Shown here: one piece after another, positions 2,727 to 17,285 of the stretch | Numbering within the stretch: the first letter of the stretch is position 1 | Layout: every line of letters begins with the position of its first letter | Assembly: GCF_008642335.1 (NCBI RefSeq) | Contig: NZ_CP029191.1 | Location: forward strand, 4,526,001 to 4,590,000 | Length of the DNA stretch: 64,000 bases | Direction of reading: 5' to 3' | Origin: Streptomyces venezuelae | GTDB taxonomy: Bacteria; Actinomycetota; Actinomycetes; Streptomycetales; Streptomycetaceae | Translations under genes and position numbers: made by a program | The notes under the pieces: generated by a model | The model's input: the letters and a program-made list of their open reading frames with translations, nothing else | Databases searched by the model: none | What the model was told of the DNA's origin: nothing

Positions 2727-5255
<2,529 letters not shown>

Positions 5256-5354: not shown

Positions 5355-7934
5355 TTACGCCGTGATCGTCACGCCCTCCGGTACGTTCCGTACGCGCGGC
5401 AGGCGCGGGTTGACGCGCAGGACGCGCAGGCCGGGGAAGCGGGCCAGCCACGCCATGTCCGGGTCGGGCAGCTCCGCGTTGATCCACAGGTGGGTGAGCC
5501 GCTCGGGGAGGAGGCCCGCGAGGAGTTCGTCGGTGCGCATGACGCCGGCCACCTGGATGCGGGGCCGTCCGCCGAGACCGCGCAGGGCGGCCAGCTCGGC
5601 CGCGTCGGACACCGGGAAGTACAGGCCCGCCGGATCGAGGTGGGCGATGATCTCCCGCGCGTACCGCTCGGTGTCGAAGTGCCGCCAGGGGCGGGCCAGC
5701 TCGGTGCGGATGGCGAGGGAGGAGCGGCCGCGCAGCCGGGAGAGGTAGTCGATCGCCGCGTCCTCCTGGACGCGGGTCGCCGTGATGGCGAGGAGCAGCG
5801 CCTGCTGGTCGCCGGGCACCTGCTCGGGGTCGGGCAGCTGCTCCAGGACGATGGGTCCGACCCAGCCGAGGCTGCGGGCACCCTGTTCGGTCGTGGGCCG
5901 CAGCAGGTTCTTCGTGCGGCGGTGGACGAGTTCCTGGACGGCCGGGTCGAGCTCGCTGACGTGTTCCAGGCAGGCCGCGGCCATCAGCCGCCGGTGGTTG
6001 ACGTGCGGCCTGCGCAGGCCGGGGGCGGCGGCGAGCAGGCGCTCCAGGAAGGCCGCGCACTCGTCAGGACGAGCGTGGGCGGCGGACATCCGGATGACCT
6101 CCTCCCACTCCGGCTGGTGGGCGTGGTCGACGAGGGTGTTGAGGCGGCCGCGCGCCACGATCTCCTTAGCGGCCAGATAGTCCTGGAACGTGCGGTGGAT
6201 GAAGTCGACGGAGACGCCCGCCTGCTCGCGCAGCAACCCGGTGCGGTGCAGCAGATGCCGGAAGATCTTCTCGCCGTCGCCCGCGGTACGGGCGGACGGG
6301 ATGGCGGGCAGGGCGCCGTTCAGGACGTCGATGACGCGGTGCCGGGGCAGCTCCGACAGTCCCTCGTCGAGCATGGCGTGGGCGAGCTTGCGCAGAAGCA
6401 GCTCCCGGGCGCCCTGCTGGAGCCGTACGTCATCGGCGTACAGCACGTCCCTTTCGGGGTCGCGGCGCTGGAGCAGCATCTCCAGGGCGGCGTCGTAGAG
6501 CTCCTTGCGCCCTTTGGGCAGAGAACCGGAGCGATCCCGGTTGAGGGCGCATATGAGGCCGCACATCAGGGGGTTGGTGGCGAGCCGCCGCAGCTCGCGA
6601 TAGATGCGTACGGAGTGCAGCAGCCGCTGCTCGTACTCCTTGAGGGCGTCCCGGTCCCGCTGCTCCCTGCACTGCTCGTCGCCCATGGCCGCGGTGTGCC
6701 AGTCGCGGATGAAGTGGGTGACCTGATCACGGGACATGGGGGCGAGCGACAGCTCCGTGAACCCCTCCTCGGCGAGGCGTTCCTGCGAGAGCCAGCCGTC
6801 CTCGACGGCGGAGGGCCGCGAGGTGACCAGGCAGGCGGTGCCGGAGAAGATGCGCAGGAGCCGCCGGAGCTGGTCGCGCAGGGCGCCGCGGGTCTCCTCG
6901 GGCGCCTCGTCGATCCCGTCGACGAGGAGCAGGGCGCGGCCGGCGAGAAGGGTCCGTACGACCCACCCTTCGGGCGCCTGGTCGGCCAGGGGATGGCGGA
7001 TGGCGTGCAGGAAGTCATCGGGTGCGGGAAAGCCCTCCCGCGCGAAGCGGCGTACGGGCAGGACGAACGGCACGCGGGCGCCGTCCCGGGCCGCGTCCAC
7101 GGCCAGCCACTGCACGAGCGTCGTCTTCCCGGAGCCCGCGACACCGCGCAGCAGCACCCGCTCGTGCCCTTCCAGGGCCCGGTCGGCGAGCAGCACGGTG
7201 CGCTGCTGCCCGCCGACGGCGTCCGTGGCGGGCCCGCCGCTGCTCTCCTCCGCCTGGAGGCTGAGATACGTGTCCTCCAGGGGCCACCGGTCGGGCGCAT
7301 TGGCGAAGTCGACGCCCACGATGGTCAGCCACCCGTGCTGCCGCACGACTTCTTGCGCGTACGCGACTTCGAACTCGGCGTCTTCGCGGGACGGTTCGTT
7401 GCGCCGGGCGGCGGCCGCCACCTCGGCGTCGTTGAGATCGACGAGCTGCCGGACGCGGCTGGCGCGCTCGGGCATGTGGCGCTGGATGTACGGGGAGCGG
7501 CGCACGAAGTGGTGCAGTACGTGCAGACAGACGGCGACGAGCAGTTCGTCGTGGAACCAGGCGGCGTCGGGGCTCAGCCCGCGGTCCGCACCCTGCACGG
7601 CGCCGCGCAGCCGCCGCGCGTAGTCCTGCGGGCCGAGGCGCACGGCGTCGGCGTCGGTGAGGTCGAGCTCGCCGATGGCCAGGAGGGTGCGGGTCAGCAC
7701 GTCTGCGACGGCGGGCAGTTCGGTCGTTGGTGCGGTGTGCCGTTCGGCGGCGAGCTGGATGAAGTCGGCGGCGGTGCGGTGGACGTGGTCCGGGTCGGTG
7801 GTGGCGTCGGGACCGCGCCAGGTGGTGAGGGCGGCGATCAGGTCGGGGGTGGTGGGGGGTCGGGAGGGGGTGCGGAAGAACCGTTGTACGAGGGGCATGG
7901 TGCGGGCCGAAGGGGTGCGTACTACGGGCTCCAT
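5355..7934 (-). CDS. NACHT NTPase 1 (bacterial NLR-like)
   Basis: STAND-class NTPase of 859 residues. It has a helical N-terminal domain (about 1-200), a conserved linker ending PLEDTYLSLQAEE, then the NACHT module. Walker A is GVAGSGKTT near residue 264, Walker B is LLLVDGIDEAPEE, and the sensor segment is LVTSRPSAVEDGW. The winged-helix part carries RLATNPLMCGLICALNRDR and DFIHRTFQDYLAAKEI. A HEAT-like helical region and a short LRR-like C-terminus (LTHLWINAELPDPDMAWLARFPGLRVLRV) follow. The ATG at 7934 lies 17 bp after the stop of NACHT gene 2, so the two form an operon; a longer reading would overlap that gene. Related bNACHT proteins protect against phage, but this role is inferred here. 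Confidence 0.88.
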   Translation of the reverse strand: MEPVVRTPSARTMPLVQRFFRTPSRPPTTPDLIAALTTWRGPDATTDPDHVHRTAADFIQLAAERHTAPTTELPAVADVLTRTLLAIGELDLTDADAVRLGPQDYARRLRGAVQGADRGLSPDAAWFHDELLVAVCLHVLHHFVRRSPYIQRHMPERASRVRQLVDLNDAEVAAAARRNEPSREDAEFEVAYAQEVVRQHGWLTIVGVDFANAPDRWPLEDTYLSLQAEESSGGPATDAVGGQQRTVLLADRALEGHERVLLRGVAGSGKTTLVQWLAVDAARDGARVPFVLPVRRFAREGFPAPDDFLHAIRHPLADQAPEGWVVRTLLAGRALLLVDGIDEAPEETRGALRDQLRRLLRIFSGTACLVTSRPSAVEDGWLSQERLAEEGFTELSLAPMSRDQVTHFIRDWHTAAMGDEQCREQRDRDALKEYEQRLLHSVRIYRELRRLATNPLMCGLICALNRDRSGSLPKGRKELYDAALEMLLQRRDPERDVLYADDVRLQQGARELLLRKLAHAMLDEGLSELPRHRVIDVLNGALPAIPSARTAGDGEKIFRHLLHRTGLLREQAGVSVDFIHRTFQDYLAAKEIVARGRLNTLVDHAHQPEWEEVIRMSAAHARPDECAAFLERLLAAAPGLRRPHVNHRRLMAAACLEHVSELDPAVQELVHRRTKNLLRPTTEQGARSLGWVGPIVLEQLPDPEQVPGDQQALLLAITATRVQEDAAIDYLSRLRGRSSLAIRTELARPWRHFDTERYAREIIAHLDPAGLYFPVSDAAELAALRGLGGRPRIQVAGVMRTDELLAGLLPERLTHLWINAELPDPDMAWLARFPGLRVLRVNPRLPRVRNVPEGVTITA

Positions 7935-7950
7935 GGTTATGAAGGGTAGG

Positions 7951-10506
7951 TCAAGTGGCCGTTGCGGGCGGGCTGTTGAGACGTACGCCGGACGGGACCT
8001 GTCGGGCTGTGTCCGCATCCACTGCTGTGGCCACGAGCAGGTCCGTGAGGCGTGGGAAGGCCGAGAGCCAGGCGAACCCTTCGACGGGGTGGGGTGCGTC
8101 CAGCGATAGACAGAGGAGCTGTTCGGGCACGATGAGTTCAGTGAGGTCCTCTACGCGGTAGGCGCCGACGACATGGATGTCCGGCCAGCCGCCGATGGAG
8201 CGCAGGGCGAGAAGGTCCTCCCGTCCGTGTACGAAGACCGGGGGGCTGAGAGACAGGTGCGCGATGATCTCCCGCAGATAGAGGTGGCGGTCGAAAGCCG
8301 GCCAGGACGAGGCCAGAACCAGCTGGACCTGCGGATCGTGATGGTCGCGAAAGCGGCTCAGGAAATGCAGCGCCGGAGTGCTGCCGATCGTGGCGGCCAC
8401 CAGCGGCACCAGGTATGCGAGCTCGTCGCGGACTTCCTCGGGGCCGGGCAACAGCGAAAGCACCAGATCGCCGCCCGCCTCCGCCAGCGCGTACGCGTCC
8501 TGCCTCGTCCGCGGCGGAATCAGCGACCGTACGCCCTCCTCCACGCCCTGCCGCACCGCCGGCGCCAGCTCCGCCGCGTACGAGGCCGCAGCCGCCGCGA
8601 GCAGCTTCCCCCGCGCCGTCCCGCTCCCCACCAACCGCTGAAGCATCCGCTCGGCCTCCCTGGGCCGCGCGTGCGCGACCGCGAGCAGGATGACGTCCTC
8701 CCACTCCGTCCGGTCCGCGTTGTTCAGGAGCAGGTCGAAGTCCAGCTCCTGTACGGCCAGACGGGCGCCCAAGTAGTCCTGGAACGTGCGGTGCAGGAAG
8801 TGCACGCGTCCGTCAGCCGGTTCTCGCAGCAGCCCCGACCGCAGCAGCAGCCAGCCGTACACCTCCTCGCCGCTGCCGTCGAGGTTCATCGCGGGGGCGG
8901 CCTCCCCGAGGATGTGTACTGCCTCCGAACGGTCCATCTCCGCGCGGCTGTTGCGGATCAGCCACCAGGCGAGCTTCTGCAGGAGCTGCACCTGCGTGGC
9001 GAACGGCAGCCGTGTCGTGGCCCTGACGTCCCGCTCGACGTCCCTGCGTTCGAGCAGCATCGTCAGGGCGGCCTCGTACAGGGACTTCCTGTCCTGCGGC
9101 AGGAACCCGCGCCGCTCGCGGTGGAGGGCGCAGAGCATGCCGCACATCAGCGGGTTGGTGGCGAGCCGGTTCAGCTCGGAGGCGCCCCGCACGGCCTCCA
9201 GGAGAGCAGTCCCGATGACCTCATCGGCGCCTGCCGCACGGTGCCAGCGACGTACGAACGTCTCGACGTCGTCGCGGGTCATCGGCGACAGCGTGAGCTC
9301 GGCGAAGCCGGTGGTGTCCAGCCAGCGGTCCGGGACGGCGGAGGGGCGGGTGGTGATGAGCCACAGGTTGCCGGGGAAGGTCCGCGTCAGATCGCGCAGC
9401 CACCGTTTCGCCGACTCGCGCCGGTCCTCGGAGATCTCGTCGAGCCCGTCCACGAGGAGGACACCGCGCCCCGCCCGCAGTACGCGGTCCACCCACCCGG
9501 GCGGCTGCCCTCCGGCGACCAGGCATCCGACAGCGGACAGGAAGTCGGCCGGAATGGGGAGCTCCGAGCCCGGCCGTACGATCCGCCGCATCGGCAGCAC
9601 GAACGGCACGCGCCCGATGAGGTGGGTCAGCCCGTGTTCGTACGTCCGGTCGGCCGCCGTCACGGCGAGCCACTGCACGAGCGTCGTCTTGCCGGATCCG
9701 GCGACTCCGCGCAGCAGCACGTGGTCGTGCTGGGCGAGGACTTGTTCGGCGGCGACCTGCGTGGCGCCCTCGCCGGGGCGGTCCCTGGTCGCCTCCAGGC
9801 TGAGGTAGGCCGTGTCGAGGGGCCACTCGCTGGTGCCGGCGTAGACGTCGAGGCCGTAGATGGTGAGGGTGCCGTGGTGCGAGGCGATGTACGACGCGTA
9901 CTGCGCTTCGAACGCGGCGTCCTCGGCCGACTGTGACGGGAGCCGTTCGAGGAGTACGTCGACGGCTTTGACCAGCTGTGCGAGCTGTTGGCTCTGGTGT
10001 GTCTGCTGCCGGGCTATGTACGTGGAGCGCTGCGTGAAGAAGTTCAGGATGTGCAGGGACGCGGTGTGCAGCAGCCGGTCGAGGAACAGTTCGGCGTCGC
10101 GGCTGAGCGCGAAGGTCGCGACGGCCACGGCCGACTGCGAGCGCAGGGTCCGCGCGAACTCGTCGGGGCCGAGGGCGACGGCTTCGTAGTCCTCGATGGT
10201 GAGGGTGCCGAGTGCGCTGAGTGCGTGGGCGAGGGCGGACCTGACCGCGACGGCTTCGGTGGCGTCGACGGGGAGTTCGCCGGGTCCGGCGGCCTTGAGC
10301 GCCCTGCGGACGAGTTCGTCGGCGATCTTCTCGACGTCCTTCGGGGTGACGTCCCGCTTCTCGCCCTTGAACGAGACGAGCCCGGAGATCCGCACCGGCT
10401 TGGTGACCAGCGCGGCGCCCGGCTGGTCCTTCACGAAGAGCTTCTTCACGAGAGGCGCGACCGCGCTGGACGCGAGCCGGGCGCCGAGTGCGCTGGGGTC
10501 GACCAT
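7951..10506 (-). CDS. NACHT NTPase 2 (bacterial NLR-like)
   Basis: STAND NTPase of 851 residues and first gene of a two-gene NACHT operon. The helical N-terminus starts VDPSALGARLASSAVAPLVKK and closely matches that of NACHT protein 3. Walker A GVAGSGKTT is at 267-275, Walker B VLLVDGLDE near 349, and sensor LITTRPSAVPDRW near 383. NACHT-associated motifs RLATNPLMCGMLCALHRER and HFLHRTFQDYLGARLA follow, then a helical repeat region and a short LRR-like tail. Paralogy with proteins 1 and 3 covers the whole length. The upstream 290 bp holds a strong dyad that may be its operator. The protein probably oligomerises on sensing a trigger; no separate effector domain is visible. Confidence 0.88.
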   Translation of the reverse strand: MVDPSALGARLASSAVAPLVKKLFVKDQPGAALVTKPVRISGLVSFKGEKRDVTPKDVEKIADELVRRALKAAGPGELPVDATEAVAVRSALAHALSALGTLTIEDYEAVALGPDEFARTLRSQSAVAVATFALSRDAELFLDRLLHTASLHILNFFTQRSTYIARQQTHQSQQLAQLVKAVDVLLERLPSQSAEDAAFEAQYASYIASHHGTLTIYGLDVYAGTSEWPLDTAYLSLEATRDRPGEGATQVAAEQVLAQHDHVLLRGVAGSGKTTLVQWLAVTAADRTYEHGLTHLIGRVPFVLPMRRIVRPGSELPIPADFLSAVGCLVAGGQPPGWVDRVLRAGRGVLLVDGLDEISEDRRESAKRWLRDLTRTFPGNLWLITTRPSAVPDRWLDTTGFAELTLSPMTRDDVETFVRRWHRAAGADEVIGTALLEAVRGASELNRLATNPLMCGMLCALHRERRGFLPQDRKSLYEAALTMLLERRDVERDVRATTRLPFATQVQLLQKLAWWLIRNSRAEMDRSEAVHILGEAAPAMNLDGSGEEVYGWLLLRSGLLREPADGRVHFLHRTFQDYLGARLAVQELDFDLLLNNADRTEWEDVILLAVAHARPREAERMLQRLVGSGTARGKLLAAAAASYAAELAPAVRQGVEEGVRSLIPPRTRQDAYALAEAGGDLVLSLLPGPEEVRDELAYLVPLVAATIGSTPALHFLSRFRDHHDPQVQLVLASSWPAFDRHLYLREIIAHLSLSPPVFVHGREDLLALRSIGGWPDIHVVGAYRVEDLTELIVPEQLLCLSLDAPHPVEGFAWLSAFPRLTDLLVATAVDADTARQVPSGVRLNSPPATAT

Positions 10507-10545
10507 GGGTCGAGGTTAGGTCAACGGGCCTATCCAGACAGGGGT

Positions 10546-10635
10546 TTAGGAGTCACCGAGACGGCCGGCCTCCGCCTGCTCGATGCCGTCGATGGCTTCC
10601 TGGACGACCCGGGACAGGTCCTCTTCGGTGGGGAA
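10546..10635 (-). other. Possible coding remnant between NACHT gene 2 and DUF397 genes
   Basis: The minus strand reads a 29-residue open stretch with good codon bias, FPTEEDLSRVVQEAIDGI and then EQAEAGRLGDS before TAA. It is cut by an in-frame TGA just upstream, without a start codon. A second short open stretch (containing IIPAPDKAPYAIVGAMSKN) follows the third DUF397 stop. They look like debris of small genes, but I cannot identify a parent family. Confidence 0.3.
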
Positions 10636-10670
10636 TCAGCTCATGCAAGGACGGTGATGTGTCACCAGGG

Positions 10671-10699
10671 CAATTGTGCAACGGCCTGTTGCGCAATTG
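10671..10699. promoter_or_regulatory. Dyad operator candidate upstream of the NACHT operon
   Basis: CAATTGTGCAAC (10671-10682) and GTTGCGCAATTG (10688-10699) form a 12-bp inverted repeat with one mismatch around GGCCT. The site is AT-rich in a GC-rich region and lies 165 bp upstream of NACHT gene 2, transcribed leftward. Its half-site GTTGCAC also occurs in the XRE/HATPase divergent promoter. Confidence 0.45.
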
Positions 10700-10797
10700 G
10701 TCCCGGCCACGGGGATCGCTGTTCTGGCCTCGGTGTTCTTGCTCATGGCGCCGACGATCGCGTAGGGCGCCTTGTCCGGGGCGGGAATGATGTCACG

Positions 10798-10988
10798 TCA
10801 CCCGAACGTGTGGTCGGGCGAGGTGAGGGTGCGTATGAGGGCGGCGAAGGCGGTGGGGCTTGTGGTGAGTGTGGTGGTGGGGGCGTCGCTCTCTTGGAGG
10901 TGGATCCGGCCGGTGGGGTGCGCTGCCACGTAGACGCAGTTCGCTTGGTCGCCGCTGAAGGAGGACTTCTGCCAGTCGGCGTACTCAT
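10798..10988 (-). pseudogene. Third DUF397 gene, start frameshifted
   Basis: A clear DUF397 domain (ADWQKSSFSGDQANCVYVA, then HLQESDAPTTTLTTSP and FAALIRTLTS) ends at 10798. The family reading frame has no ATG, GTG or TTG between the upstream in-frame stop and the domain. The expected start ATGAGTAC at 10988 is one base out of frame with the rest. A single-base indel after the start codon would explain this. Either the copy is broken, or there is a sequencing error, or an unusual start is used. It is the third tandem copy after two intact DUF397 genes. Confidence 0.7.
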
Positions 10989-10993
10989 GCCGG

Positions 10994-11206
10994 TCACCGC
11001 GGTCGGTCGGTGCCGGTTGCCGTGGTTGTGCGGGCGGTGAGTGTGCGCATGAGGTTGGCCAGAGCTACTGGGGTGGTGGTCAGGATCGTGGCGGGGTGGT
11101 CGCTTTCGTGGAGGTGGACAGTGCCGTCGGGGGCGGCGGCGAGGTAGACGCAGTTGGCGCCTGCTCCCTCGCTGAAGGAGGACTTCTGCCAGGTGAGAGT
11201 GCTCAT
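10994..11206 (-). CDS. DUF397 small protein (second copy)
   Basis: A 70-residue protein with the complete DUF397 signature: STLTWQKSSFSEGAGANCVY, then VHLHESDHPATILTTTP and LANLMRTLTA. DUF397 proteins occur in Streptomyces beside XRE/DUF5753 regulators and have been described in the Scr1/Scr2 pair as toxin-antitoxin-like partners. The ATG overlaps the stop of the preceding DUF397 gene in an ATGA arrangement, so translation is coupled. The start is supported by this overlap and by the family N-terminus. Confidence 0.9.
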   Translation of the reverse strand: MSTLTWQKSSFSEGAGANCVYLAAAPDGTVHLHESDHPATILTTTPVALANLMRTLTARTTTATGTDRPR

Positions 11207-11412
11207 TTCGGGGCTCCCTGGAGGGGGCGAGAAGTGGTGGTGAGGGTTCGTATGAGTGCGGCGAACGTAGCGGGGTGGGTGGTGAGGGTTGTGGCGGGGG
11301 CGTCGCTCTCCCGGAGGTGGACTGTTTCGGCATTGTGGCTCGCCGCGACGTAGAGGCAATTGACGCCTGCCCCGTCGCTGAAGGAAGACTTCTGCCAGAT
11401 GAGTTCAGTCAT
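11203..11412 (-). CDS. DUF397 small protein (first copy)
   Basis: A 69-residue DUF397 protein starting TELIWQKSSFSDGAGVNCLYVA and containing VHLRESDAPATTLTTHPATF. It overlaps the end of the XRE regulator gene by 4 bp and overlaps the next DUF397 gene through ATGA, so regulator and DUF397 genes form one transcription unit. The family role is as a small partner of the XRE/DUF5753 protein; biochemical activity is unknown. The close similarity of the tandem copies points to local duplication. Confidence 0.9.
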   Translation of the reverse strand: MTELIWQKSSFSDGAGVNCLYVAASHNAETVHLRESDAPATTLTTHPATFAALIRTLTTTSRPLQGAPK

Positions 11413-12311
11413 CGTCGGGCTCCGCTGTGGGCGTAGTGGATGTGCTGGACGAGACCCAGGGAGTCTCGGTCTTCGAGGCGGTCCGGTGTGCTCTCGTTCA
11501 CGATGGGCGCCAGTGCGCTGGCGCCCAGAGCGGCGATGGTCGCTCGGTACTGGGAGATCGCTTCACTGTCGTGCAGGGTCATGCCGGCGGCGGGGTGCTC
11601 GACGAAGACGGTTTCCAGTCCCGGCACTCCCGGGGAGAGGAGGAGGAACGGGGCGCTGCGCCAGGCCTGTGTCCCCTGGTCGAACGATAGGACCTGGATG
11701 GTGACGTGGGGGTTGTTGGAGCTACGGATCAGGTGCGCCAGTTGGTTGCGCATGACCTGAGGGTTGCCGACGACCATGCGTAGGGCCGCCTCGTGGATGA
11801 CGGCGTGGAGGTGGGGCGGGTGTTCGCCGGTGAGGATGCGCTGGCGCGCGAGGCGGAAGCGCACCAACGTGTCGATCTCGGCGGGCCTGGCGCTGGGCCG
11901 AGCGTTCTGGAAGAGCGTGCGCATGTACGACTCGGTCTGGAGCAGGCCGGGGATGAGCAGCGTCTCGTAACTCGCGATGCTGGTCGCCCGGTCCTCCAAC
12001 TCGGCAAGATCGAGCAGCTGCTGGGGCAGCTCCTTGCGGTACTCGGACCACCACCCCTTGCCGTTGCTTTCCGACAGGCGCACCAGTTCGTCGATGTAGG
12101 TACCACTAGTGCACCCGTACCGGGTTGCAAGGGTGTGGATGCGTTCCGTTGAGATGCCGGTTCTGGCCGCCTCGATGTGCGTCATGTGGGGTCGTCCCAC
12201 GCCGATCAACGCGGCCGCCTCGATGAGGTTGAGCCCCGCGTTCTCGCGCAACTTTCGGAGCTCGACGCCGAGTCGTCGCTGGCGCTCGGTGATGTGCTGC
12301 CGCAGTGCCAA
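11409..12311 (-). CDS. XRE-family regulator with DUF5753 domain
   Basis: Helix-turn-helix regulator of about 300 residues. The HTH_31/XRE domain covers roughly residues 10-70 (LGVELRKLRENAGLNLIEAAALIGVGRPHMTHIEA in two parts). The DUF5753 domain then runs to the C-terminus, starting near YETLLIPGLLQTESYMR and including FLLLSPGVPGLETVFVEH. TTG 12311 was chosen as start because GGGAGG lies 7 bases upstream; a longer reading to 12404 would enter the divergent promoter. In Streptomyces this family is encoded with DUF397 and HATPase partners and affects development or growth. An 11-bp motif shared with its promoter lies inside its own coding sequence. Confidence 0.88.
   Translation of the reverse strand: MALRQHITERQRRLGVELRKLRENAGLNLIEAAALIGVGRPHMTHIEAARTGISTERIHTLATRYGCTSGTYIDELVRLSESNGKGWWSEYRKELPQQLLDLAELEDRATSIASYETLLIPGLLQTESYMRTLFQNARPSARPAEIDTLVRFRLARQRILTGEHPPHLHAVIHEAALRMVVGNPQVMRNQLAHLIRSSNNPHVTIQVLSFDQGTQAWRSAPFLLLSPGVPGLETVFVEHPAAGMTLHDSEAISQYRATIAALGASALAPIVNESTPDRLEDRDSLGLVQHIHYAHSGARR
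12103..12113. promoter_or_regulatory. Intragenic copy of the promoter motif
   Basis: CCACTAGTGCA inside the XRE coding sequence is the exact reverse complement of TGCACTAGTGG at 12387-12397 in the promoter. An exact 11-bp match 284 bp away could allow looping between operator copies. It could also be chance, because the codons encode ordinary residues. Confidence 0.35.
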
Positions 12312-12383
12312 GGGTGGACCTCCCGGGAGTTCGGGCTCAGTTTGACGCCTCAAGGGTGAAGGTTCCACCGATTCAGGCAAGAA

Positions 12384-12401
12384 GGTTGCACTAGTGGCAC
12401 C
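12384..12401. promoter_or_regulatory. Operator candidate between XRE gene and HATPase gene
   Basis: GGTTGCACTAGTGGCACC is an imperfect palindrome around CACTAGTG in the divergent promoter region, 73 bp upstream of the XRE start and about 145 bp upstream of the HATPase gene. CACTAG-centred dyads flanking XRE/DUF5753 genes suggest autoregulation. Inferred from position and symmetry. Confidence 0.5.
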
Positions 12402-12543
12402 CACTCCCTACGTTGAGTGAGGCGACGCTCACGTCGGAAGCATCGCTGTCGACGCATTCCCCCGCCCTGCCCGCCCGCAAGGGCCACGTGGGGTCGGTCA
12501 TCCACCAGGCGAAACAGCGACCCCAACGCCATGGAGGCGTCTC

Positions 12544-12948
12544 ATGGGCGTACCCCCGCATGACCTCACGTCGGACAGACAAGACACCTACACCCTGTTC
12601 ACCCCCGGCAACGCCCACTCCGCCAAGATCTGCCGTGACTTCGTCCAGCGCACCTTGGAAACCCTCGGCCTCGGCCACCTCGGGGACACCGCCGCCCTCT
12701 GCACCTCAGAACTCGTGACCAACGTGCACCAGCACACGAAGAGCGACGTCCACCTGAGAGCCGCCGTCGCCACCACCCACGTACGCATCGCCGTGTACGA
12801 CGACGGCGACCAACTGCCCACGCCCCGCAGGCCCGACGCGGAGGAAGAGGGCGGTCGGGGGCTCTTCCTCGTGACCGCGCTGTCGGACGTGTGCGGGGTG
12901 ACGCCCGTGAGCGCGGGCAAAGGCGTGTGGTTTCAGCTCAATCGGTGA
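12544..12948 (+). CDS. HATPase_c-type ATP-binding protein (RsbW/SpoIIAB-like)
   Basis: A 134-residue GHKL-fold protein of the anti-sigma/serine-kinase-like group common in Streptomyces. The N box is CTSELVTNVHQHT, the G1 region is VAVYDDG-like (RIAVYDDGDQ), and the G2 loop is EEGGRGLFLVTALSDVCGV. These proteins may phosphorylate or sequester partners of alternative sigma factors. It is divergent from the XRE/DUF5753 gene, the usual neighbour of such proteins, and shares the promoter region with it. The 3' end overlaps the convergent NACHT gene 3 by 11 bp. Confidence 0.88.
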   Translation: MGVPPHDLTSDRQDTYTLFTPGNAHSAKICRDFVQRTLETLGLGHLGDTAALCTSELVTNVHQHTKSDVHLRAAVATTHVRIAVYDDGDQLPTPRRPDAEEEGGRGLFLVTALSDVCGVTPVSAGKGVWFQLNR

Positions 12949-15900
12949 GTGAGCCGTAGACATGTACGTCGATGTGGGCGGGGAGGTCGTCCACGCCTAC
13001 CGCCGCCGCGGGGACCGTCAGCTCCGTCAGGCTCGGGTGGTGGGCCAGGGCGGAGACGTCGATGGGGGTGTTCCGGTCCGGGTTGCCCTCGGGGCGGTTC
13101 TGCAGGAACAGCCGCTTCAGCTCCGGCGCCAGCGCACGCAGGCGTGCGACCGCCGCCGTCCAGGACGGATCGGGGCGGAGCTGGAGGTCGACCAGGCCGG
13201 GCACCGTCAGGTCCGGCGGGGCGAGCGTGAGGGCGTTCGCCGGCAGGTGCAGGGCCAGGGGGCCCGGCAGGGCGGCGAACACCTCCCAGTCCGTCGCGGA
13301 CAGCACATCGTCGTCGTCGAACGTCACCCGCTCCAGCGTCGGCCACCGGGTCGCGAGGTGCAGGTCGGTGAGGGAGGCCCGGGATTCCACGAGGCCGAGG
13401 AACCGCAAGGGGGCCTCGGCGGGGAACGGTGCCAGGCTCCACGGCTCCAGCGCGCCGACGACGCTGAGCCCGTCGAGGTGGCCGAGGGCACGCAGCGCCT
13501 CCGGCGTCAGCAAGGTCGGCGGGAACCTGTTGAGCAGCAGGAAGGTTGGCTCACAGGCCGCTATGAAGCGGGAGGCCACCGCAGGGGTGACGCCCGGCCT
13601 GATGTCCAGTTTTCGCGGACGCAGGCCCAGCCGGTCCAGCTCGGCGACCTGTTCGTCGGTGCGCAGGGTGAAGTGGATTCCGGTGCCGTCGAGTTGGGTG
13701 ATGATCTGCTCCGCGTACGCACGGCGGTCGTACCGTTGCCACCCCCACATCAGCTGACTGCGGACCCCGATACTCCGGTGCCGGGCGAACCGGGCGAGGA
13801 AGGGGATCGCCGCGTCGGAGTCCACGCGCGTCCCGGTGATCGTCACGTGCGTGGCCTCCTCGTCGGTCAGGCCGTCCGGCCCCGGCAGCAGGTCGAGCAC
13901 CATCGGCCCGACCTTCGCCAGCGCCTTCGCGTCCGCCACGTCGCGCGGCGGAATCAGCGCCGCCGTCCGCCGCTCCACCTCCTCCCGCACCGCGGGCGCC
14001 AACTCCGCCGCGTGTTCCAGGCAGGCGGCTGCCAACAAGTGGATCCGCTTGCGGGCCTGCTCCTCCGGGTGGCGGTCCCCGTGCGCGAGCAGGTCGCCCA
14101 GGATCTCCGCACGTTCACGCGGCCGCGCCTGCGCCACGGCCATGCGGATGACGTCCTCCCACTGGTCGTCCGCCGCATGCCCGGCGAGTACGCCGAAGTC
14201 GCCCTCGTCGACCGCCGCCCGCGCCCCCAGGAAGTCCTGGAATGTGCGGTGGACGAAGTCGACCGTGCCGGGTCCGGGTTCGCGCAGGAGGCCGCTGCGG
14301 TGCAGGAAGTGGGTGTAGACGGTTTGCGCGTCACCGAGGAGGGCCAGCTCCGGAACCGCGGGCAGCGCGTCCGCGATGATGGACTCGGCGCGCGAACGGT
14401 CCATCACCGTACGGCCGTTGCGGATCAGCCAGTACGCCAGCCGCTGGAGCAGCTGGAGCTGCGGCTCCTCGCGCAGCTCCGGGACCGCCATGTGGCGCTC
14501 CCGGTCCCGGCGGACCAGCAGCATGGACAGAGCCGCCGTGTACAGATCCTTGCGGCCCAGCGGCAGGAAGCCACGCCGGTCCCTGTGCAGGGCACAGATC
14601 AGGCCGCACATGAGCGGATTCGTGGCGAGGCGGCCCAGATCCGGCTTCGACCGCACCGCCTCCACGAGCTGACTCTCGTACGCGACGAGTTCCGCGTCCT
14701 CCTCCTGGACCCCCGTGGCCGCAGCCGCGTGCCAGCGCTCGATGAACGCCGCCACCTCCTCCTCCCGCATCGCGGAGAGTGTCAGCTCCGTGAAGCCCTC
14801 CTCGGTGAGCCAGTCCACGCGTACGGCCGACGGGCGGGACGTCACCAGCCAGCGGTTGCCCGGGAACGTGTCGATGAGGTCGCTCAGCCAGGCCCGGGTC
14901 CGGTCGCGTTCGGCGTCCGGGATCTCGTCGATGCCGTCGATGAGGACGAGGGCGCGGCCGGCCGACAGGACACGCGCCTCCCAGCCCTTCGGCTGGGTCC
15001 CCGCGAGCGGGCAGCCGACGGCGGCCAGGAAGTCCGCGGGGGCGGGCAGGCGCTCGCCGTGGCGGGTGAGGGTGCGCAGGGGGAGTACGTAGGGGACGCG
15101 GTCGTCGAGGTACGCCATGGACGGGTGTGTCGAAGACGGGGTCGGGCCCGCCACGTCCCTCCGCGTCGCGCTCACCGCAAGCCACTGCACGAGCGTGGTC
15201 TTGCCGGAACCCGCCTCGCCCCGGAGGAGGACGCGGTCGTGCGTGGCGAGGGCCTGGTCCGCGGGGAGCGGCGGCGCGTGCTCGGCGATCCCCAGCTCTT
15301 CCGCGTCGTGCCCCGTTTCCAGAAAGCGACGCTCCGCTTGCGTCAGATGGCGGAACGTCTGCGTGTGCGCCGGATCCACCGCCTCCAGCGACATATACGC
15401 CGCGTCCAGCGGCCACTTCCCCGGCGAGCCCGTCAGATCGATGCCGAAGATCGTCAGCTTGGAGTGCTTCTTCGCCACGTACGCCAGATAGCGCCGCTCG
15501 AAGGCGACGTCCTCCGAACCACCGGCGACCGGGGTGCGGGCGATCAACGCGTCGACCTTCGCGATCAGCTCGTCCTGCCCCCGGCTCTGCGCGACCAGCG
15601 TCGCCGCGACGAACGTGGAGCGCTGGGTGAAGAACTGCAGGATGTGCAGGCACGCCCACTCGGTGACCGAGTCGAGGTAGCGGGCGGCGTCCGCGGAGAG
15701 CCGCGAGTCCGGGGCCGCGCGAACAAGCTTCCGGGCCAGCTTCTCGTGGCCGAGCCGGACCGCCTGCACGTCGTTCATGTCGAGGTCGCCGAGCGACAGG
15801 AGCGCCCGGGTCAGGGCGTCGATGACCGCCTCGGTCTCGTCCGGCGGGAAGGGGCGCTCGCCGGGGGAGGCGAGGGAGGCCGCCACGAGCCGCTCCGCGA

Positions 15901-16078
15901 GGCGCCGCACGTCCCGGCCGCCCAGCGTGCGCTGCTCACCCCTGAACGACACCAGGGAGGAGAGCCGTACCGGCTTCTCCACCAGGCCCGCGCCGGGGCC
16001 CTCCCGTACGAACAGACGCTTGATCAGAGGGGCGACGGCACTCGACGCCAGGCGTGTGCCGATGACCGCGGGATCCAT
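12938..16078 (-). CDS. NACHT NTPase 3 with expanded LRR-like C-terminus
   Basis: The largest of the three paralogues, 1046 residues from ATG 16078 (DPAVIGTRLASSAVAPLIKRL matches protein 2). Walker A GEAGSGKTT is at 287-295, Walker B is ALVLIDGIDEIPD, and the sensor is LVTSRPSAVRVDW. RLATNPLMCGLICALHRDRRG and VDFVHRTFQDFLGARAA follow. It differs from 1 and 2 by an insertion before Walker A (residues 235-275) and by a C-terminus about 190 residues longer, with repeated short strand-turn units such as LRFLGLV, LTDLHLA, LERVTFD, LVDLQLR, LKRLFLQ and LTELTVP. That tail is LRR-like and is the likely sensor. It is transcribed alone, with its own upstream region. Confidence 0.88.
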   Translation of the reverse strand: MDPAVIGTRLASSAVAPLIKRLFVREGPGAGLVEKPVRLSSLVSFRGEQRTLGGRDVRRLAERLVAASLASPGERPFPPDETEAVIDALTRALLSLGDLDMNDVQAVRLGHEKLARKLVRAAPDSRLSADAARYLDSVTEWACLHILQFFTQRSTFVAATLVAQSRGQDELIAKVDALIARTPVAGGSEDVAFERRYLAYVAKKHSKLTIFGIDLTGSPGKWPLDAAYMSLEAVDPAHTQTFRHLTQAERRFLETGHDAEELGIAEHAPPLPADQALATHDRVLLRGEAGSGKTTLVQWLAVSATRRDVAGPTPSSTHPSMAYLDDRVPYVLPLRTLTRHGERLPAPADFLAAVGCPLAGTQPKGWEARVLSAGRALVLIDGIDEIPDAERDRTRAWLSDLIDTFPGNRWLVTSRPSAVRVDWLTEEGFTELTLSAMREEEVAAFIERWHAAAATGVQEEDAELVAYESQLVEAVRSKPDLGRLATNPLMCGLICALHRDRRGFLPLGRKDLYTAALSMLLVRRDRERHMAVPELREEPQLQLLQRLAYWLIRNGRTVMDRSRAESIIADALPAVPELALLGDAQTVYTHFLHRSGLLREPGPGTVDFVHRTFQDFLGARAAVDEGDFGVLAGHAADDQWEDVIRMAVAQARPRERAEILGDLLAHGDRHPEEQARKRIHLLAAACLEHAAELAPAVREEVERRTAALIPPRDVADAKALAKVGPMVLDLLPGPDGLTDEEATHVTITGTRVDSDAAIPFLARFARHRSIGVRSQLMWGWQRYDRRAYAEQIITQLDGTGIHFTLRTDEQVAELDRLGLRPRKLDIRPGVTPAVASRFIAACEPTFLLLNRFPPTLLTPEALRALGHLDGLSVVGALEPWSLAPFPAEAPLRFLGLVESRASLTDLHLATRWPTLERVTFDDDDVLSATDWEVFAALPGPLALHLPANALTLAPPDLTVPGLVDLQLRPDPSWTAAVARLRALAPELKRLFLQNRPEGNPDRNTPIDVSALAHHPSLTELTVPAAAVGVDDLPAHIDVHVYGSLTD

Positions 16079-16628: not shown

Positions 16629-17285
16629 ATGTCGAAGCGCACCAAGTCCCACCGTCCCGGCCCGTCGTTCTTCCGTACCCGCGTGGCCTTCGTCGTCGCG
16701 GGCGTCGGGATGTCGACGGCCCTCGGCGCCGGGGTCTCGGTCGCCGCCGGTGACACCAAGAGCGGTGGCGCCCTGCCCGGCGTCGCCGTGAACTCCGTCC
16801 AGGCCCAGGCCGCCGCCCAGGCGAAGAAGGCCGCGGACGTCAAGAAGGCCGCCGCCGCGAAGGTCGCCGCCTGGGTCGACCCGGTCAAGAACTACACGCT
16901 CTCCGCGAGCTTCGGCCTCGGCGGCACCATGTGGTCGCACAAGCACTCCGGCCAGGACTTCGCCGTGCCGGTCGGCACCGCGGTCGGCGCCGTGCACGGC
17001 GGCACCGTCGTCAAGGCCGGCCCGAACGGCGCCGGTGACGGCCCCGCGTACGGCAACGCCGTCGTGATCAAGCACAGCAACGGCACGTACTCCCAGTACG
17101 CGCACCTCTCGCAGGTCGACGTCCGGGTGGGCCAGGCCGTGGGCACCGGCCAGCGCATCGCTCTCTCCGGCAACACCGGCAACTCCAGCGGTCCGCACCT
17201 GCACTTCGAGATCCGTACGACGCCGAACTACGGCACGGCCGTGGACCCGGTCAAGTTCCTCGCGTCGGTGGGCGTGAAGGTCTGA
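16629..17285 (+). CDS. Secreted M23-family peptidoglycan endopeptidase
   Basis: LytM/M23 metalloendopeptidase of 218 residues, expected to cut peptidoglycan cross-bridges outside the cell. It has a basic N-terminus and a hydrophobic signal segment (VAFVVAGVGMSTALGAGVSVAA), then an Ala/Lys-rich helix (residues 55-75). The M23 domain follows, with zinc ligands in HSGQDFAVPVGT (HxxxD) and GPHLHFEIR (HxH). The ATG at 16629 is preceded by GGAGG with 8-base spacing; the longer upstream reading lacks this and has no signal peptide. It is the first core gene to the right of the NACHT island. Confidence 0.93.
   Translation: MSKRTKSHRPGPSFFRTRVAFVVAGVGMSTALGAGVSVAAGDTKSGGALPGVAVNSVQAQAAAQAKKAADVKKAAAAKVAAWVDPVKNYTLSASFGLGGTMWSHKHSGQDFAVPVGTAVGAVHGGTVVKAGPNGAGDGPAYGNAVVIKHSNGTYSQYAHLSQVDVRVGQAVGTGQRIALSGNTGNSSGPHLHFEIRTTPNYGTAVDPVKFLASVGVKV

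Follow-up and report, generated by a model that had tools for sequence, protein, structure and literature searches.

Genes and domains of the clpC-M23 interval

The 64,000-bp stretch of the Streptomyces venezuelae chromosome analysed here (positions 4,526,001 to 4,590,000 of NZ_CP029191.1; hereafter, the window) harbours three genes encoding NACHT proteins related to NOD-like receptors (NLRs). These genes, named NLR1, NLR2 and NLR3, lie between clpC (2727..5255, + strand) and a gene encoding an M23 peptidase (16629..17285, + strand). All three are carried by the - strand: NLR1 (5355..7934) encodes 859 aa, NLR2 (7951..10506) 851 aa and NLR3 (12938..16078) 1046 aa. A first-pass annotation had reported three NACHT genes of these sizes, with intact motifs, from clpC to the M23 gene, and this is confirmed by the reading frames, by Pfam and by a motif check. 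The NLR1 frame starts from the ATG at position 7934 (longest possible frame, 887 aa); the longest possible frame of NLR3 encodes 1054 aa. NLR2 is located upstream of NLR1 at a distance of 16 bp, and the two genes are probably transcribed as one operon.

The three proteins display a NACHT domain (102–111 bits in Pfam, for a cut-off of 26.7) and an NNH1 domain (93 bits for NLR1, scanned in its 887-aa form, 154 for NLR2 and 190 for NLR3, for a cut-off of 27), i.e. PF05729 and PF22733 both exceed their curated cut-offs, so that all three belong to the NNH1-NACHT family. As for the shared N-terminal helical domain that had been announced for them, its version in the 859-aa protein has clearly diverged. 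Each of the three has the Walker A, Walker B, NPLMCG and HRTFQD[YF]L motifs.

NLR3 carries its NNH1 domain at aa 7–180 (15539..16060, - strand), its NACHT domain at aa 282–452 (14723..15235, - strand) and a leucine-rich repeat (LRR) domain at aa 801–1046 (12941..13678, - strand). The LRR domain was detected by a profile match to internalin LRRs (E 4.6e-20) and is also seen in the structure model. NLR3 is the only one of the three to be an NLR in the strict sense, i.e. to associate a NACHT domain with LRRs; for NLR1, the profile search gave no LRR match and the model shows only a short LRR-like end. AlphaFold2 models were obtained for NLR1 (mean predicted local distance difference test score, pLDDT, 86.4) and NLR3 (mean pLDDT 85.2, with low confidence for the first 50 residues). 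The nearest solved folds to both are those of NLRC4, NOD2 and NLRP3.

A recurrent site and three types of NACHT proteins

The M23 gene, present in 138 of the 150 Streptomyces genomes searched, was used as the marker of the site. Among the matches listed, NNH1 was detected in at least 93 of the 150 genomes, and NNH1 genes or remnants lie just upstream of the M23 gene in at least 54 of the 138 marked genomes, three of these sites (L027, L049 and L051) holding fragments alone. Among the 150 NNH1 matches listed, all 72 found at the M23 site point away from the M23 gene and the remaining 78 are located elsewhere. With a gene of this type found again at this site in 54 of 138 genomes, chance does not account for the location. 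The first-pass annotation had considered that a housekeeping role would be indicated if nearly every Streptomyces had these genes there and they differed little; this is not the pattern seen, as they are present in 54 of 138 genomes and their divergence is high.

Eighty loci were fetched (L005–L084): all the occupied loci except the window (53), and 27 drawn from the 86 M23 matches listed as unoccupied, one further match from G027 having been dropped; shares among them are thus not genus frequencies. In 73 of the 80, clpC is found on the same piece and forms the opposite border, and in the seven others, a contig edge or the 20-kb limit cuts the piece short, or the locus has undergone rearrangement. 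Intervals devoid of any NACHT trace (19) span 0.5–3.1 kb, against up to at least 12.4 kb for those that are occupied. Some genes were overlooked or wrongly placed during gene calling (L037, L089), and the layouts were therefore taken from another analysis.

A tree was built from 126 NACHT proteins, which come from the window, the fetched loci and another 32 loci (L085–L116) picked for their similarity to NLR1. It separates 61 NLR3-like proteins (type A), 14 NLR2-like proteins (type B) and 43 NLR1-like proteins (type C), three of which (L098, L113 and L114) were not seen beside clpC or the M23 gene. Eight proteins of trypsin-NACHT type stand apart, two of them confirmed by Pfam (L072, L056) and six placed in this branch by similarity. 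Walker A is found in 118 and Walker B in 117 of the 118 A, B and C proteins, including NLR1–NLR3, as expected for NACHT-type NTPases of the STAND class (signal transduction ATPases with numerous domains). As both motifs are intact in all 43 type C proteins, this type is most likely NTPase-competent. Several C-like proteins (L103, L104, L108–L112 and L116) are about 58–60 % identical to NLR1 from about residue 183 and have a shortened or different N-terminus.

Considering only fetched loci whose clpC is near-complete (72), type A is the sole NACHT type in 28, and 22 lack any NACHT frame, three of these holding remnants (L027, L066 and L083). A and C occur together in four, three contain B and C, and the rest are occupied by combinations, by remnants or by a NACHT protein of another kind. 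Most A genes have no C with them; C is therefore not a partner of A in general, and the possibility of C acting as a common helper of A was rejected as a general rule (A alone in 28 of 72 intervals vs four A-C intervals). Repeated loss is suggested by what is left of decayed or broken NACHT genes between the two borders in L027, L066, L083, L049, L051, L070, L100 and L115.

The distances between NACHT proteins correlate with clpC distances (Spearman 0.56 for A, 0.89 for B and 0.67 for C; none of 500 permutations as high), and much of their history is therefore vertical. In one lineage, the locus has been split: C remains beside clpC and A beside the M23 gene, distant in the same chromosome, and both genes are retained (L104 and L023 of G055; L109 and L042 of G096). 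Outside Streptomyces, NNH1 looks rare, as only seven genomes pass the cut-off in a sample of 296 from the phylum, six of these being Streptomyces; one B-C-A locus (L138) is filed under Kitasatospora aureofaciens. The clpC-M23 interval is thus a fixed NLR site of Streptomyces, and NLR genes can sit at a stable core location of the chromosome. The term 'island' previously applied to this region is misleading, given this fixed site, the agreement with clpC distances and the lack of any tRNA gene in the 64-kb window. A mobile-element reading was likewise rejected on the last point and because a search of a phage collection with NLR3 gave no match; no integrase was recognised among the genes identified, none having been sought by profile. 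More distant relatives of NLR3 are carried by plasmids, the best-ranked being 49 % identical over 87 %. This NACHT gene of a 709-kb Streptomyces plasmid (NZ_CP108307.1:303135-305902) points to a possible route of spread.

Pairing of B and C

Among 392 Streptomyces genomes, surveyed with at most two candidates scored per genome, a close B is found in 13 (at least 68 % identity, the next matches being at 54 %) and a close C in 14 (at least 79 % identity, the next matches being at 63 %). All 13 genomes with a close B have C, and 13 of the 14 genomes with a close C have B, one genome having C only. C is located directly downstream of B, at 3–56 bp, in all 11 B loci that are readable; in G081 and G220, B and C are on different contigs and their adjacency is unseen. 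A scan of named genomes, whose set partly overlaps these 11, places C immediately behind B at 15 of the 16 loci that can be read. The B-C block lies either after A (window, L048) or before A (for example L052, L086 and L087), which implies that the B-C pair moves as a block. Adjacency and co-inheritance, two features of paired NLRs, thus both apply to B and C, with one exception each way.

Contrasted evolution of the C-terminal and N-terminal parts

Rates were obtained from Nei-Gojobori counts of nonsynonymous (dN) and synonymous (dS) substitutions on sister pairs, pairs with a tree distance above 0.6 being dropped. Dividing C-terminal by N-terminal dN gives a median ratio of 3.25 for A (above 1 in 27 of 27 pairs), 2.02 for B (above 1 in four of six pairs) and 1.13 for C (20 pairs), with p = 3.5e-7 for A and B vs C and p = 5.5e-8 for A vs C. 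Across the 11 genomes where both were compared, 54 of 55 pairwise comparisons, which are not phylogenetically independent, show stronger conservation of C than of B. The median identity of the C-terminal part there is 62 % for B and 82 % for C, and that of NNH1 is similar (71 % and 73 %, respectively). Between L089 and L052, dN in the last part of the protein reaches 0.33 for B, 0.26 for A and 0.004 for C. Part of this difference seems to stem from allelic replacement, dS being elevated there as well.

On these sequence comparisons, the C-terminus appears hypervariable in A, where this part corresponds in NLR3 to the LRR domain, less firmly so in B, where the variable part corresponds in NLR2 to aa 641–851 (7954..8586, - strand), and not in C. 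The diversification proposed earlier for this locus is therefore strong but confined to the C-terminal part of A and B. It does not amount to proof of positive selection, the C-terminal dN/dS having a median of 0.56 for A and 0.42 for B, neither exceeding 1. C-terminal dS is raised in A (median ratio 1.48) and not in B (0.89), which points to a contribution of allelic replacement as well. The variable ends of A and B are probably their recognition parts. Within type C, the median C-terminal dN/dS is 0.12 when the locus also holds a partner (11 pairs) and 0.36 when it does not (seven pairs; p 0.03); this comparison, grouped by hand with two mixed pairs of the 20 excluded, fits a pair model and is not main evidence.

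The N-terminus shows the reverse asymmetry. Its consensus motif, MDP..IG.RLASS.V.PLVKKLFV.EGPGAGLV, whose retention was judged by eye, is kept in all 12 A proteins shown (of 61) and in 13 of 14 B proteins, the remaining one being cut by a contig end. In C proteins with a linked partner, the motif is lost or eroded, including in NLR1, whose aa 1–56 (7767..7934, - strand) have lost the RLASS..PLVKKLF..GPGAGL motif of A and B. In contrast, five of the seven solo C-like proteins, each of which is the sole NNH1 protein of its genome, keep it, and L103 keeps part of it. The NNH1 scores of C follow the same trend, with a median of 151 (118–185) for solo proteins (seven genomes) vs 99 (86–139) with a linked partner (17 genomes) and 102 in the split lineage (seven genomes); with an unlinked NNH1 protein elsewhere in the genome, the median is 147 (107–201; four genomes). 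As judged from these contrasts, A, B and C are not equivalent to one another.

A bacterial immune-receptor pair with divided labour?

The explanation favoured here for the architecture, location, pairing and evolutionary asymmetry of the three types, to which we assign a probability of about one half, is that A would act autonomously as an NLR, B would both recognise and execute, and C would be an NTPase-competent regulatory partner of B, at a fixed NLR site between clpC and the M23 gene. A would be a complete single-chain NLR, with a helical signalling N-terminus followed by a NACHT switch and, at the C-terminus, an LRR array; it would recognise invaders by its LRRs and signal through NNH1, and the LRR array would vary because it recognises changing invader proteins. 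B, which keeps the N-terminal motif and has a variable C-terminus, is proposed to recognise and to execute. C has lost this motif, but its NTPase motifs are intact and its C-terminus is constant; instead of acting as a third sensor, it would regulate B or assemble with it. Infection would cause the NACHT proteins to oligomerise and thereby trigger growth arrest or death; such an antiphage role, like the output of NNH1, is suggested by analogy with bacterial NACHT proteins that have been tested (PMC12169576). A physical B-C complex and a direction of signalling are also part of this proposal, in which C would either help or restrain B; both forms predict that B is rarely found without C, and the sequence cannot tell which applies. 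The multi-sensor locus suggested by the first-pass annotation is thus retained as far as NLR-like genes between core genes are concerned, but the three would not be equivalent sensors, given the constrained C-terminus and diverged N-terminus of C.

Several observations weigh against this explanation. Strict obligate pairing of B and C was rejected, as the draft genome of Streptomyces scabichelini has B followed by A with no C found, and G280 has C without B, together with A. Furthermore, adjacent genes that are inherited together stay together without interacting. The dN ratios of B and C, compared alone, do not differ significantly (p 0.14, six vs 20 pairs), two of the six B pairs show no C-terminal excess, and the 55 B-C comparisons share ancestry. 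At the N-terminus, one solo C (L094 of G391) has lost the motif and has a low NNH1 score, five C proteins with linked partners (L026, L036, L100, L101 and L106) keep part of the motif, and the C-like proteins of G366, G090 and G059 have high scores despite another, unlinked NNH1 protein. Finally, the comparison of scores between 17 and seven genomes is not phylogenetically independent either and leaves out at least eight genomes with C (G353, G246, G277, G215, G239, G280, G195, G220 and others).

The best-surviving alternative, which we nevertheless regard as unlikely, is that three independent NLR sensors share a permissive site, C being constrained by an unchanging trigger such as a host factor or a conserved phage feature. 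It would account for A as the sole NACHT type at many occupied loci, for the seven genomes where a C-like protein is the sole NNH1 protein and for the retention of NTPase motifs in all three types. It predicts neither that B nearly always occurs with, and adjoins, C nor that the N-terminal motif decays in C proteins that have a linked partner.

Slightly less probable still is a brake, B being autoactive and harmful without C, as in an NLR pair resembling a toxin-antitoxin system; as this is the restraining form of the favoured explanation, the odds of the two overlap. B is very rarely found without C, whereas C can lack B, and the intact NTPase motifs and diverged N-terminus of C would suit a brake, but S. 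scabichelini apparently has B without C.

It is rather improbable that C is a helper and executor, like NLRC4 or the plant NRC proteins, through which A and B, being sensors only, would signal. It is true that neither of the other two types is as conserved as C, that the C-termini of A and B vary, that B almost never occurs without C, and that the folds resemble NLRC4. However, an executor would be expected to retain the N-terminal motif, and it is A and B that do so, this motif being lost or eroded in partnered C; in addition, A usually exists without C.

Equally improbable is a function other than phage defence, namely self/non-self recognition between mycelia, for which the fungal NLR incompatibility genes offer a comparison, or developmental cell death. 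The near restriction of NNH1 to Streptomyces, the inheritance with clpC at a core site, the hypervariable C-termini and the lack of a specific match to catalogued defence models would fit it, but bacterial NACHT proteins have been shown to protect against DNA and RNA phages (PMC12169576).

Under the favoured explanation, the cluster suggests, from gene content and sequence, a bacterial immune-receptor pair with divided labour. A broader claim, held more tentatively, is that bacteria independently evolved paired NLRs, C having given up its N-terminal signalling segment to become the fixed partner of the fast-changing receptor-executor B; the same reading, with the same reserve, would also place the autonomous NACHT-LRR receptor A at one site comparable to plant NLR clusters. 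If this is true, it would suggest that NLR specialisation arose more than once, and the bacterial pair would provide a simple, genetically tractable model of one receptor becoming two. The interval also supplies many natural LRR variants for finding the ligands of bacterial NLRs.

Relationships with known systems

Plants and animals both have NLRs that work in pairs or networks, and loss of N-terminal motifs occurs among plant sensor NLRs. The B-C pair resembles such paired NLRs by the loss of an N-terminal motif in one partner and differs from them in that the partner devoid of the motif, C, also has a constant C-terminus. A further resemblance, to NAIP/NLRC4 and to plant sensor/helper NLRs (PMC9975940), is that linked receptors change at unequal rates. 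The structure matches to the animal proteins NLRC4, NOD2 and NLRP3 do not cover the N-terminal domain, and the sequence identity is about 13–21 %.

Bacterial NACHT proteins that protect against DNA and RNA phages, and bacterial NACHT-LRR proteins that are bona fide bacterial NLRs, are already described in PMC12169576. The window proteins share with these bNACHT proteins a central NACHT domain with intact motifs, an N-terminal domain and a sensor-like C-terminus, A having a true LRR. They differ from bNACHT25, which carries a nuclease at the N-terminus where NNH1 is found here, and from bNACHT proteins more generally by their clustering at a recurrent chromosomal site, two of the three genes forming a conserved asymmetric pair. 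No paired or specialised bacterial NACHT system and no clpC-M23 site were found in the literature searched, as judged by titles and abstract openings and including PMC8195603 and PMC10907252, which is weak evidence as subscription journals are mostly uncovered; a search on NNH1 and NNH2 returned no relevant paper.

No specific model of the defence catalogues (PADLOC, NCBIfam) matched above its cut-off, only partial weak matches being obtained, such as the NCBIfam model EruA (43 bits for a cut-off of 1000) and the best match of PADLOC, which has no cut-offs (E 3.2e-5 over a short stretch). The scan gave no Avs match, the presence of an Avs model in the library being unchecked, and Avs structures rank below animal NLRs for the NLR1 model.

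Accessory genes and other occupants of the interval

The regulator module previously noticed between NLR2 and NLR3 is indeed present. It comprises an XRE-DUF5753 regulator gene recognised by profile match (11409..12404, - strand), a small DUF397 gene (11203..11412, - strand; PF04149, E 7.6e-12), a second small DUF397-like gene whose motif was recognised by eye (10994..11202, - strand) and a divergent HATPase_c_2 gene (12544..12948, + strand; PF13581, E 1e-10) whose 3' end overlaps that of NLR3. Its inclusion as a core part of the system was rejected: because XRE-like genes are found in or beside the interval at few loci (L023, L042, L048, L050, L085 and L131) and DUF5753 has 22 matches across the source genome, including this one, the module is treated as accessory. 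Scans for sigma-70 promoters and terminators gave nothing.

Two different NACHT architectures share the site, as the interval of L072 (2599-6308) and L056 (10467-13576) holds a trypsin-like-NACHT gene and a small Trypco2 gene, both Pfam-confirmed. Like the window proteins, these NACHT proteins of other Streptomyces occupy the clpC-M23 interval, and they are about 36–40 % identical to them over the aligned part; they differ by their trypsin-like N-terminus without NNH1 match and by the accompanying Trypco2 gene. Other occupants are an S13 D-Ala-D-Ala carboxypeptidase gene (L062:2739-4337) and a gene of about 210 aa resembling HAD-type acid phosphatases (L012:5794-6426), similar-looking open reading frames being seen by eye at many loci.

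The source genome carries a fourth NNH1-NACHT gene (G000:C1:4796225-4798312), which is separated from the cluster by about 256 kb. Another NACHT gene, more distant (G000:C1:5630164-5632658), adjoins another DUF5753 gene, making a second such neighbourhood in this genome.

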